Positions 46,705 through 51,261 of a stretch of 64,000 nucleotides of DNA are shown here, piece by piece (position 1 is the first letter of the stretch; each line of letters starts with the position of its first letter). Where the stretch lies: the NCBI GenBank assembly GCA_902599315.1, contig CACKEY010000001.1, positions 299,328-363,327 on the forward strand, given 5' to 3'. A program made the translations under genes and the position numbers. The notes under the pieces were generated by a model that saw nothing but the letters and a program-made list of their open reading frames with translations, ran no database searches and had not been told where the DNA came from. This DNA is from an uncultured SAR86 cluster bacterium. Its GTDB lineage: Bacteria > Pseudomonadota > Gammaproteobacteria > Magnimaribacterales > D2472.

Positions 46705-47583
46705 TTAAGAATTAAAAGCTTCTATTAAAGACTTAACATTATGACGCATCATATCAATGTAAGTTCCTGCTGGACCACCAATCTCACTTAATGCATCTGA
46801 ATAAAGTTTTCCGCCAACTGGTACCCCTGATTCTTTAGAAATCGCTTTAAGTAATTTGGGATTATTAATATTCTCCATAAATAATGCTGTAACTTTTTTT
46901 TCTTTAATTTGATTAATTATTTTAGCCACATCTTCTGCAGAAGCTTCTGCATCTAAACTTAAACCTAGGGGTGCTAAAAATTCAATATTGAATTCGCGTC
47001 CCAGGTAACCAAATGCGTCATGGCTAGTTATTACAATTCTTTTTTTGATCGGAATGTTACTAAGTTGATTGCTAAGATTCATTTCTAATTCAAATAGTTT
47101 TTTTAGATAATTATTCCTTCTAAGAGCAAAATATTGTTCATGTTCAGGCATCAAATTGATTAATTCCCCAGAAATGTTATCTATGTATATGCGAATATTT
47201 TTAAAGCTTTGCCAGGCATGTGGGTCTATTTCGTTAAATCGATTTAGCGAATTAATACCATCACTTGAAATTAAATAATTTTTCTCTTTATCTGAATCTT
47301 TAATTAATCGAAATATCCAACCTTCAAAACCCAGTCCATTAAAAATAATTAGATCTGCATTTGAAATGGCAACTGCATCAGATGGTTTAGGCGAATAAAT
47401 ATGAGCATCGCTATTTCTTGGAACCAGGTTAGTGACACTTACACGATCTCCTCCCAGCTCTAATACTAGGTCCTCCAATATAGTAAAACTTGTAACTATC
47501 TTAAACTGGCCATCTTTAGCAAAAATTGGAAATCCATTTAAAAGTAATAATATTGCTAATTGAAGCAGCCTTAATTTAAACAT
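46705..47583 (-). CDS. znuA: Zinc ABC transporter substrate-binding protein
   Basis: A 292-residue cluster A-I solute-binding protein with a signal peptide (residues 1-22, ending FPIFA). Candidate metal ligands are the histidine in NSDAHIYSPKPSD, the one in EIDPHAW, the one in ITSHDAFGYLG and the aspartate in KLYSDALS. A histidine in the third position fits zinc binders better than manganese binders of the PsaA type, which use glutamate there. The long His-rich loop of E. coli ZnuA is absent. Together with two COG0523 genes this favours zinc. Starts five bases after the znuB stop. Confidence 0.88.
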   Translation of the reverse strand: MFKLRLLQLAILLLLNGFPIFAKDGQFKIVTSFTILEDLVLELGGDRVSVTNLVPRNSDAHIYSPKPSDAVAISNADLIIFNGLGFEGWIFRLIKDSDKEKNYLISSDGINSLNRFNEIDPHAWQSFKNIRIYIDNISGELINLMPEHEQYFALRRNNYLKKLFELEMNLSNQLSNIPIKKRIVITSHDAFGYLGREFNIEFLAPLGLSLDAEASAEDVAKIINQIKEKKVTALFMENINNPKLLKAISKESGVPVGGKLYSDALSEIGGPAGTYIDMMRHNVKSLIEAFNS

Positions 47584-47588
47584 CAGAT

Positions 47589-48455
47589 CTAATTTTTAAG
47601 GTGTCGTAATGGTAAAAGGCTTCTTAGAAATCCACCATTTGAACCAAAAAGCATTGAGAGAATGCACATTGCGCCAACCGAAACAATTATTGCTGGGCCA
47701 GATGGCATATCAAAATAAAATGAGAGCATTAAACCAATGTAGCAACCTGAGATGCCAACAATTATTGAAATAATAATTAAATTATCAAGTGAGTTTACCC
47801 AAAACCGAGCGGCTGTAGCTGGAAGAACCATCATACCAATTGACATTAAGGTACCTAAGGCCAGAAAACCCGCAACTAAATTTATAACCATTAGAAATAA
47901 AAAACCATAATGTGCAGCTTCACTGGCAATGCCTGAAGATTTCAAAAACATGGAGTCCACGCATTCAATTATAAGGGGACGATATAAAATAGCTAAAATG
48001 AAAACACTTAAAGAGCTAATTATTGCAAGTAGCCATAAAGTATCATTGTCTAAAGCAAGAATATTTCCAAATAGAATATGGAATAAATCTACATTAGCTT
48101 CTTTCATTGAAATAATAAGAACACCTAATGCAAGAGAAATTAAGTAGAAAGCAGCAAAACTAGTATCTTCTTTAAGTTGCGATACGCGAGAAACCCATCC
48201 TGCTAAAGCAGCAACAATTAGACCTGCTGTTACACCACCAATTGCGAGGCCTAAAAGTGAGAGTCCGGAAATGAGGTATGCAATTGCAGCACCGGGAAGA
48301 ATAGCATGTGCCATTGCATCACCTGTTAAGCTCATTCTTCTGAGTGTCATAAAAATACCAACTGGAATGGCGCCAAAGCAAATTACAAAACTCCCTATAA
48401 ATGCTCGCCTCATAAAAGCATAATCTATGAAAGGGCTTATAAGAAAATCTATCAT
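47589..48455 (-). CDS. znuB: Zinc ABC transporter permease
   Basis: A 288-residue ABC-3 family membrane protein with about eight hydrophobic segments. Motifs include MRRAFIGSFVICFGAIPVGIF, GDAMAHAILPGAAIAYL and a late SIGMMVLPATAARFW. I start at the ATG 48455, which joins znuC by a TAA-A-ATG junction; a start at 48512 inside znuC would add 19 unneeded residues before the first membrane segment. Forms the channel with ZnuC. Confidence 0.92.
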   Translation of the reverse strand: MIDFLISPFIDYAFMRRAFIGSFVICFGAIPVGIFMTLRRMSLTGDAMAHAILPGAAIAYLISGLSLLGLAIGGVTAGLIVAALAGWVSRVSQLKEDTSFAAFYLISLALGVLIISMKEANVDLFHILFGNILALDNDTLWLLAIISSLSVFILAILYRPLIIECVDSMFLKSSGIASEAAHYGFLFLMVINLVAGFLALGTLMSIGMMVLPATAARFWVNSLDNLIIISIIVGISGCYIGLMLSFYFDMPSGPAIIVSVGAMCILSMLFGSNGGFLRSLLPLRHLKN

Positions 48456-48456
48456 T

Positions 48457-49179
48457 TTAGCTGATGCACCAAGCCGAATTTTCATCAAATGCCTCAGAAA
48501 CTTTTTTGGCATTGTCTAAATTTTCTTTTGTCAAAACCGATTTTGTTGAGCCCAAATCTATACATTCTTTTGCAAGAAGCATAGAGGTAGGACAATTATC
48601 TTTTACATATTCGAGATCATGAGTAACCATAATTATGGTTCTATTTTTATTTTGCCATTCCTTTATTACCAACGTTAAATCAGTCAGTGTTTTTGTATCG
48701 ATTGCGTTAAATGGTTCGTCTAAAAGAATAACTTGCTGATCCTGCATAAGAACTCTTGCAAATAAACTTCTCTGAAGTTGTCCTCCAGAAAGGGTATTTA
48801 TTTGTCGGTTTTCAAAACCATCTAATCCAACAGCCTCCAGAGCATTCATACATCTTTCTATTTGAGTATCAGAGAGACCACCCGAGAAACCTATCTCTTG
48901 CCAAAGTCCTGTTGAGATAAGTTCAAGTACTGTAATTGGAAAATCTTTATCCAATTTAGTTTGCTGAGGTAGGTATGCAACATTATTTGGATTTATTCCT
49001 TTAATGGAGCCTTCATATTCAGTAATAATTCCTGCAAGAACATTAAGTAGGGTCGATTTTCCAGCACCATTTGGACCAACAATAGCTAACCACTGACCTT
49101 GATTAATTGTTGCACTTAAATGATGAACTGCTGGGTGAAAATTATATGAAACAGTAAGATTTTGAATTTTAATACTCAT
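48457..49179 (-). CDS. znuC: Zinc ABC transporter ATP-binding protein
   Basis: A 240-residue ABC ATPase: Walker A GPNGAGKSTLL, Q-loop YLPQQTKLDKDFP, signature LSGGQLQRSLFARVL, Walker B QQVILLDEPFNAID and the switch histidine in MVTHDLEYV. The ABC-3 class is confirmed by the adjoining permease and binding protein. Its ATG is one base after the stop of a 39-residue membrane peptide gene, a TAA-A-ATG junction identical in form to that between znuC and znuB. Confidence 0.93.
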   Translation of the reverse strand: MSIKIQNLTVSYNFHPAVHHLSATINQGQWLAIVGPNGAGKSTLLNVLAGIITEYEGSIKGINPNNVAYLPQQTKLDKDFPITVLELISTGLWQEIGFSGGLSDTQIERCMNALEAVGLDGFENRQINTLSGGQLQRSLFARVLMQDQQVILLDEPFNAIDTKTLTDLTLVIKEWQNKNRTIIMVTHDLEYVKDNCPTSMLLAKECIDLGSTKSVLTKENLDNAKKVSEAFDENSAWCIS

Positions 49180-49180
49180 T

Positions 49181-49300
49181 TTAGGTTACCAAAAATACTA
49201 ATGTATTCATCATTATAATTATTACCAATATTAAAAATATTCGACTTGAAGTACTCCAATGCAATAAAGATTTATTCATTAGTTTTTTATCTTTTTTCAT
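49181..49300 (-). CDS. Predicted 39-residue single-span membrane peptide upstream of znuC
   Basis: A short frame, too small for ordinary gene calls, encoding a basic N-terminus (MKKDKKLMNKSLLHW) followed by one strongly hydrophobic segment from about residue 20 to 38 (RIFLILVIIIMMNTLVFLV). Positive-inside reasoning would place the N-terminus in the cytoplasm. The stop TAA is separated from the znuC ATG by a single base, exactly as znuC is from znuB, which supports real translation and coupling. It lies between the candidate zinc operator and znuC. No strong SD is visible and I recognise no family. It could be a small accessory subunit of the transporter or a coupling leader. Confidence 0.5.
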   Translation of the reverse strand: MKKDKKLMNKSLLHWSTSSRIFLILVIIIMMNTLVFLVT

Positions 49301-49489
49301 TAAAAATTAAATCATTAAGTTTATATAGATTCTTCAGACTAGCACACTTGTCAAGCATTTATACTTTTGAAGAAAGACTGTTTTATATGCATCCATGAGA
49401 TAAGTTTCCAAAAGAATTTCACTAATTTATATTACATACCTTAAACTTAATTATTTGATTTACAGATCTTTACTGAGAGGAATTCTAAA
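49301..49489. other. Divergent control region between the znu operon and the OYE gene
   Basis: A 189-base AT-rich stretch that must hold the leftward znu promoter and the rightward promoter of the OYE-family gene. The only clear element is the 21-base repeat at 49336-49356. A GAGAGGAATTC sequence just before 49490 supplies the ribosome-binding site of the OYE gene. No tRNA, hairpin terminator or further peptide is seen. Confidence 0.5.
49336..49356 (-). promoter_or_regulatory. Candidate zinc-responsive operator, copy 2
   Basis: Second perfect copy of the 21-base repeat (core GACTAGCACACTTGTC), 36 bases upstream of the small peptide gene that precedes znuC. Flanking bases differ from copy 1, so conservation is limited to the motif, as expected of a protein-binding site. 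It also contains TTGACA in the leftward direction. The dyad does not resemble the AT-rich Zur box of E. coli, so the regulator may recognise a lineage-specific site. Confidence 0.6.
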
Positions 49490-50794
49490 ATGTCTTTAAT
49501 TATGAACAGCCCATTCACCTTGCCTTGTGGCCAAGTTATTAAAAATCGAATTTGCAAAGCTGCAATGACTGAAAGAATTGCAAAAGGAAATAATTTAGCG
49601 CATCAAGGCCATATTAATCTCTATCGCAAATGGGCTGAGGGCAATATTGGTCTTTTGTTAACAGGCAACGTTATGGTTGATCGCAAAAACATGGAAGGTC
49701 CAGCGAATGTTGTGATTGATAGCCAAAATTATAAAGATCACATAGACGAATTAAAAAACTGGTCCTCTGCAGGAACAGAGGACAATACTCAATTGTGGAT
49801 GCAAATATCTCATGCAGGAAGACAAACTCCTGGAGAAATAAATTCATCTCCATCAGCACCATCAGACGTCCAATTAAAAATTCCTGGTCGTAGTTATGGT
49901 TTGCCAATTCCTATGAGCGAGGAAGAGATACTAAGTGTTATTGATAAGTTTGTTTTCACAGCAAAGATTGCTCGGGAGACTGGATTTACTGGAGTTCAAT
50001 TTCATTCAGCTCATGGATACTTGTTATCTGAATTTCTTTCACCAGATATTAATACACGAAATGATGCATGGGGCGGTAGCTTAGAAAATAGAGCAAGAAT
50101 GCATTTAGAAATCATCAAAAAATGCAGGGCAGAGGTTGGGGAAGATTTTCCAATCTCAATGAAGTTAAACTCAGCAGATTTTCAAAAAGGTGGATTCACT
50201 GAAAATGAAAGCATTGAGGTTGCAAAAAAGCTAGAGGAAGCAGGATTAGATCTTTTAGAAATTTCAGGTGGAACCTATGAGCAGCCAAAACTAATAGGTG
50301 CGGATCACATTAGCATCAATCCAGACAGAAGCGAAACAAGACGAGAAAGCACTATTGCAAGAGAAGCATATTTTCTTGAGTATGCTGACAACATTAGAAA
50401 AGCTGTAACGATGCCTTTGATGGTAACAGGTGGTTTTAGAACAAAAGATGGCATAGAAAACGCTTTACAAAGTAATATTTGTCAAATTGTAGGAGTGGGT
50501 AGACCCTTATGTGCAGATCCTTACTGCATAAAGAAAATGATGGATGAAGAGTTAGAGATGCTGCCAAGTGTTGAAAAAACTTTATCCTTAGGGCCTTGGA
50601 TTTTTTCTGCTAAAAGCCCAATTAAATTAATTCAAGTTATTAATGCGTTTGGTGCCATGGCATGGTGTTACCAGCAAATTAAAAGAATGGCAGAAGATTT
50701 GATGCCTGATAACAATCAAAAGTTATTTAACGCTTTACGAAAAGATACCAAAGCTGATAAGCAAGCGTTCAAAGATTATTTAGAAAATAATTAA
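49490..50794 (+). CDS. Old Yellow Enzyme family NADH:flavin oxidoreductase
   Basis: A 434-residue FMN-binding TIM-barrel protein. Features are SPFTLPCGQVIKNRICKAAM at the N-terminus, WMQISHAGRQTPG, the active-site region GVQFHSAHGYLLSEFLSPDINTR, GGSLENRARM and TGGFRT. The iron-sulphur and C-terminal domains of trimethylamine dehydrogenase are absent, so it is a simple OYE-like enoate reductase type. Substrate unknown. A GAGAGG SD lies about 9 bases before the ATG. The 3' end overlaps the convergent DUF411 gene by four bases. Confidence 0.85.
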   Translation: MSLIMNSPFTLPCGQVIKNRICKAAMTERIAKGNNLAHQGHINLYRKWAEGNIGLLLTGNVMVDRKNMEGPANVVIDSQNYKDHIDELKNWSSAGTEDNTQLWMQISHAGRQTPGEINSSPSAPSDVQLKIPGRSYGLPIPMSEEEILSVIDKFVFTAKIARETGFTGVQFHSAHGYLLSEFLSPDINTRNDAWGGSLENRARMHLEIIKKCRAEVGEDFPISMKLNSADFQKGGFTENESIEVAKKLEEAGLDLLEISGGTYEQPKLIGADHISINPDRSETRRESTIAREAYFLEYADNIRKAVTMPLMVTGGFRTKDGIENALQSNICQIVGVGRPLCADPYCIKKMMDEELEMLPSVEKTLSLGPWIFSAKSPIKLIQVINAFGAMAWCYQQIKRMAEDLMPDNNQKLFNALRKDTKADKQAFKDYLENN

Positions 50795-51261
50795 TTTTTT
50801 CTTACTTCTGCAAACACCCGACTGGTACCATCTTTATAAAGAATTAAAACATCATAAGGCATAAAACGATTGCCAATTTCCATACCAGGAGAGCCAACAG
50901 GCATTCCCGGGACTGATAGACCGATAGCATTGGGATGATCCTCTGAGAGAAATTGAGTTATGTATTGGCTTGGTATATGACCTTCAAAAATATAACCGTC
51001 CACTGAAACGCCTGTATGACATGATCTATATTCAGGCTTGATATTATAAGTTGCTTTTATTTCTTCAAGACTTTCATGATTTTTAGTTGTAGTGTTCATG
51101 CCGCTCATTTCTAAATGTTTAATCCATTTCTTACAACAACCACAAGTTGGAGTCTTGTGAACCAACAGCATAGTTTGAGCATTAGTGTTTGGCATTTCAG
51201 ACTCAGAAGAAAATACAGATATTGTCAGTGCAAATGTGAATGCTAAAAGGTAGATTTTCAT
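50791..51261 (-). CDS. DUF411 secreted metal-binding protein
   Basis: A 156-residue DUF411 protein with a signal peptide (residues 1-18). The family motif TPTCGCCKKWIKHL provides three cysteines, and CHTGVSVDGYIFEGHIP and GLSVPGMPVGSPGME are typical. DUF411 proteins are associated with copper handling; methionine and cysteine content fits copper binding, but no copper genes are adjacent. It is the last gene of the leftward malonyl-CoA decarboxylase-aldehyde dehydrogenase-DUF411 row. Confidence 0.85.
   Translation of the reverse strand: MKIYLLAFTFALTISVFSSESEMPNTNAQTMLLVHKTPTCGCCKKWIKHLEMSGMNTTTKNHESLEEIKATYNIKPEYRSCHTGVSVDGYIFEGHIPSQYITQFLSEDHPNAIGLSVPGMPVGSPGMEIGNRFMPYDVLILYKDGTSRVFAEVRKN

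Follow-up and report, generated by a model that had tools for sequence, protein, structure and literature searches.

The ZniCBA zinc importers of K. pneumoniae (PMC10797113) and R. leguminosarum (PMC12183173) are described as three-gene operons, with no small protein listed in the available portions of the two papers; in the same portions, the word "hypothetical" was not found. The available text on Rhizobium places a Zur box 153 bp upstream of zniC (PMC12183173), a distance which leaves room for a small frame. Two further systems are related to the locus described here: AztABCD of Paracoccus denitrificans, whose ATPase, permease and binding protein are relatives of those found in SAR86, and canonical ZnuABC, which, like the SAR86 system, is a zinc ABC importer of the cluster A-I class.

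The locus lies in a stretch of 64,000 nucleotides from an uncultured SAR86 cluster bacterium (contig CACKEY010000001.1), indicated below as the window. Its features are the following:

49301..49380, minus strand: leader/promoter region, with TTGACA at 49354-49349 and no Zur-like box
49181..49300, minus strand: gene for a small single-span membrane protein, 39 codons and a stop, first gene of the operon
48457..49179, minus strand: ATPase gene, zniC/aztA type (znuC in the earlier note); AztA is its top NCBIfam model, at 211 bits (cut-off 220)
47589..48455, minus strand: permease gene, zniB/aztB type (znuB in the earlier note), typed by AztB (254 bits against 280) and by the permease tree
46705..47583, minus strand: substrate-binding protein gene, zniA/aztC type; best solved relative 8SVC

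The operon order is thus small protein, ATPase, permease and binding protein, and the transporter genes share the C-B-A order of ZniCBA. Among solved structures, K. pneumoniae ZniA (8SVC, E 9e-65) comes nearest to the binding protein, followed by AztC-like proteins, while E. coli ZnuA is distant (about E 1e-14). In the NCBIfam ranking, AztA, AztB and AztC come first for the three transporter proteins, each under its cut-off; the binding protein (250 bits against 350 for AztC) is further below than the other two. No aztD is seen among the listed ORFs around the operon, and the system is not placed within AztABCD, just as comparison of binding protein, permease and ATPase with E. coli Znu does not support canonical ZnuABC orthology. 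The earlier assignment to Znu needs correction: the type is Zni/Azt, as indicated by 8SVC as closest structure and by AztA/B/C scores just under cut-off. Near the operon, on the same strand, 50791-51261 encodes a 156-aa protein whose start resembles a signal sequence and which contains a CGCCKKW motif; by eye, it looks DUF411-like.

The small frame and its upstream region in SAR86

The product of 49181-49300 is MKKDKKLMNKSLLHWSTSSRIFLILVIIIMMNTLVFLVT; codon 8 (M8) is an alternative in-frame start. Its start is lysine-rich, and it contains one hydrophobic span, whose best Kyte-Doolittle 19-mer scores 2.88; AlphaFold2, run without an alignment, predicts one helix for residues 3-38, with pLDDT about 93-94 in the span. 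The frame is joined to the ATPase gene by TAA-A-ATG: stop codon, one base, ATG. Coordinates, strand, length, lysine-rich start, span and junction had all been correctly described in the earlier note; its further statement, that ATPase and permease genes are joined in the same way, holds if the permease starts at 48455, its probable start, which follows TAA-A-ATG, and not at the earlier in-frame ATG (48512) where the ORF list begins.

A chance ORF in the AT-rich leader is one rival reading, AT-rich DNA often encoding hydrophobic stretches. Among dinucleotide shuffles, 16 of 5000 (0.3%) produce a similar hydrophobic frame that stops where the ATPase begins, and 2 of 5000 do so when a Kyte-Doolittle value of at least 2.5 is imposed. 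For the reality of the frame, conservation is stronger evidence than the shuffle test.

The zinc operon (46705-49300) is patchy in SAR86. The search covered 107 genomes of the family: ATPase, permease and small gene occur together in three; a fourth locus, from another genus, is partial, its contig stopping inside the ATPase gene. The SAR86 permease nests in a Porticoccaceae/Pseudomonadales group, which, together with the patchy presence, suggests horizontal transfer.

In the two other SAR86 species, the small gene is in the same position, its stop codon again one base from the ATPase ATG, and its product is 100% identical in all three. At the DNA level, 0-1 changes per 120 bases are found, against 9-35 per 723 in the ATPase gene; in the comparison with G031, the figures are 0 of 120 and 35 of 723 (Fisher P 0.006). 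Close relatives had been proposed as a check on the frame: they show no frameshifts or stops, and with 0-1 changes per 120 bases a synonymous excess is not measurable among them. At other SAR86 genomic sites, the 39-mer finds scattered weak matches (E 0.004-3), several of them inside long unrelated frames.

The TTGACA hexamer (49349-49354) lies within a block, AAGTATAARTGCTTGACAAGTGTGCTAGTCT, nearly invariant in the three SAR86 species, likely to be a promoter or an operator. A candidate zinc operator had been placed beside the frame by the earlier note. This was not borne out for Zur-type boxes, to which the search was confined: the 160 nt that precede the small gene contain no Zur-like palindrome beyond chance. 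In this genome, which is 89.8% complete and may therefore encode a Zur as well, a single FUR-family gene was found, and by eye it looks like Fur. In relatives, Zur boxes with 0-2 mismatches lie no more than 160 nt ahead of the small gene at 47 of 97 loci, the perfect ones in Klebsiella and Enterobacter; at these loci, the near-consensus boxes upstream place the small gene inside a zinc-starvation operon.

Homologues in other bacteria

The wider search started from ZnuB-like permeases of other bacteria, the region before the ATPase gene being inspected for each. In one permease clade, which includes alpha-, beta- and gammaproteobacteria and Gemmatimonadota, 107 loci are readable, and 97 of them have a homologue of the small frame. 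The frame ends between 82 nt before and 7 nt past the ATPase start; many homologues overlap it as ATGA, and several end 20-80 nt short of it. Examples are MKKGSNKSFLHWSLSSRMWLALSLSFSIWLLLFLMV from Porticoccaceae and MAHSHGHSHAHDHSHG...WSILRMTLAARLAAAAAISAVLWAVVLTAMR from Afipia. Outside the clade, none of the ten readable loci has such a frame.

Two profiles were evaluated for their ability to recognize the family. The Porticoccaceae-type profile, built from six sequences with SAR86 left out, was compared with the 1632 six-frame fragments of the window: the SAR86 frame is the sole significant match (E 2.2e-9), the next scoring 0.53. The other profile, mainly alphaproteobacterial, recovers all 25 positive loci held out from it at E<0.005, with K. 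pneumoniae zni at 2e-7, and no locus devoid of the small frame falls below E 0.25. Since this profile alone scores the SAR86 frame weakly (E 0.054 and 0.77 in two tests), SAR86 membership rests on the Porticoccaceae intermediates. A family profile gives E 3.9e-12 on the SAR86 frame. In 369 class-level genomes, it scores E<=1e-5 in 13 of the 14 with a clade permease and in none of the 355 others (Fisher P 5e-23), a result which describes its specificity and not its sensitivity, because the profile includes members from the same set.

The small proteins have no Pfam, NCBIfam or PDB match, apart from scattered matches of single members, the best at E 0.009, and viral contigs contain no relatives. 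Of seven plasmid-collection records bearing the frame, annotation of it is present in two, each time as "hypothetical protein", the gene table of the collection being incomplete. These proteins make up a single family, hitherto undescribed, which goes with zinc ABC importers of the Zni type.

A K. pneumoniae record contains the frame MFTSIFMASGAVRAAIAGVLLAALWLATWWAVTLP (L145:2203-2310), unannotated, whose stop overlaps the zniC start as ATGA, and a relative is also found before the ATPase gene at the Enterobacter zni locus; an importer already under study probably has an overlooked part. In this record (CP125156.1, 5.4 Mb, labelled as a plasmid but evidently a chromosome), the zniC frame is split (L145:2052-2983), which points to a broken gene or to misassembly. 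As for other rhizobia, the main text of a small-proteome paper on S. meliloti (PMC10117765) does not mention znu, and troCBA is absent in the S. fredii study (PMC7029138).

The family core, contained in the single span, is S/P-L-L...R-x11-W. In the alignment of 97 members, the basic residue (R/K) is present in all, W at R+12 in 93, and an SLL...S/G segment is conserved. The SAR86 member has the Arg before the span, and Asn where the near-invariant Trp stands. For 18 disjoint family pairs, dN/dS is 0.21 in the small gene and 0.11 in the ATPase gene, against 1.58 for a +1-frame control; the synonymous bias, sought by the earlier note as a test of the frame, is thus found at the level of the family, and indicates purifying selection on the small protein. 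Maintenance across several proteobacterial classes, this selection and near-perfect co-occurrence with the permease all speak against a chance ORF, which the held-out profiles and dN/dS rule out and to which we attach a scarcely noticeable probability. Taken together, these comparisons identify the 49181-49300 frame as a genuine gene of a solid family, and its initial description, as an unannotated, coupled, single-span protein of a transporter, is backed by independent profiles, gene order, co-occurrence and dN/dS.

The same data bear on a leader or coupling device, where translation of the frame delivers ribosomes to the overlapping ATPase start, perhaps bringing them to the membrane in SRP fashion, and the peptide itself has no partner. 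A very short gap to the ATPase start, or an overlap with it, at nearly all loci would suit such a device, as would the near-invariance of the SAR86 DNA, and not of the protein only. Coupling has no need, however, of R-x11-W, of the SLL...S/G segment or of a dN/dS of 0.21, and it is not strict, as shown by the several members which end well before the ATPase gene. We consider this explanation unlikely.

Permease tree and histidine-rich tails

In a permease tree, built by a quick method, the 97 rows with the small frame and ten without it fall in one clade, and the ten readable rows outside lack it. Presence of the frame is clustered on the tree: it needs 4 changes, and shuffled labels need 18.8. 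The clade leaves out permeases of less than about 33% identity, those of canonical ZnuABC among them.

Eight of the ten clade rows without the frame form one nested group, which holds the AztABCD systems (aztD is annotated in several). The small protein thus marks the branch of Zni type, and its absence from AztABCD is probably a loss. As AztABCD systems function in its absence, the core chemistry of import does not depend on it. A complete aztABCD zinc-import cluster is also found on a conjugative K. pneumoniae plasmid, pBio30 (L178).

At least three histidines precede the span in 41 of the 97 small proteins (about 40%); the SAR86 member is without such a His-rich N-terminal tail. The AztABCD-type loci examined are devoid of the small protein, and several carry a His-rich tail on AztA instead. 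A His-rich stretch at the C-terminus of AztA is found in 4 of the 10 relatives devoid of the small protein: in L089, L095, L110 and L180 (Phyllobacterium-type AztA), the tails are long, with up to 15 His. In one lineage bearing the frame (L079/L150), the small protein has no histidines, and the His-rich stretch is on the C-terminus of the ATPase. The comparison is small and phylogenetically dependent, with few independent cases, and L076 was judged by eye to be a readthrough artefact in the count of His tails. The alternative location of the histidines, on the N-terminus of the small protein or on the C-terminus of the cytosolic ATPase, fits one shared compartment, and a cytoplasmic zinc-binding role near the importer.

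Proposed role of the small protein

In 76 of the 97 members, the N-side of the span has a higher net charge than the C-side, which indicates that topology is probably N-in. The reading that we favour, and consider rather probable, is that of a helix oriented N-in and accessory to the ZniBC complex, to which some members add a cytoplasmic zinc-binding tail. According to it, the small protein would be the first product of the operon, its translation coupled to that of the ATPase, and would be inserted N-terminus-in as one helix; the conserved Arg would lie at the cytoplasmic face, followed, in most members, by the Trp 12 residues further on. As an accessory subunit, the helix would be packed onto the permease/ATPase dimer, and may assemble, stabilise or tune the importer under zinc starvation. 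Where present (about 40% of members), the His-rich tail would add a cytoplasmic zinc-binding site beside the ATPase, acting as an exit-side buffer or as a feedback sensor; the SAR86 member would have kept the helix, with no tail.

KdpF is one of the small proteins acting as transporter accessories. Others are AcrZ, MgtS/MgtU/MgtR, MntS, and LucB of a mycobacterial lipid ABC importer (PMC10710835). Most members of this group are under about 50 residues, usually form one helix and act on a transporter; in the libraries searched, they have no sequence relation with the Zni small family, which differs from them also by its R-x11-W core, its position as first gene of the operon and its optional His-rich tail.

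Among these proteins, MgtR/MgtU/MgtS, acting on Mg2+ transporters (reviewed in PMC10710835), provide the precedent for a turnover adaptor: the small protein would bind the permease and control its degradation by an FtsH-type protease, without being a stoichiometric subunit. In size, in its single span and in being co-regulated with the transporter, the small protein is like them, but nothing points to a protease here, and the strict operon linkage suits a subunit at least equally; such an adaptor is a quite improbable explanation, more so than a coupling device. Fusions of the small protein to ATPase or permease, which would be evidence of contact, were looked for unsystematically and not seen.

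The accessory helix may be taken one step further, as a tentative reading that we regard as somewhat improbable as a whole: Zni-type importers would possess a fourth membrane subunit, a permease-docked helix bearing, in many lineages, a His-rich zinc trap beside the ATPase; AztABCD systems would have lost it, several of them having moved the His tail onto AztA.

Zni-class importers aid virulence or symbiosis, and the accepted picture of them has had three components. With a fourth one, conserved, encoded alongside and for the most part lacking annotation in the records inspected, these systems are to be cloned, reconstituted and modelled differently, and post-translational control of bacterial zinc import becomes directly testable. 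If the proposal is true, the fourth subunit would give the importer exit-side zinc binding or feedback.
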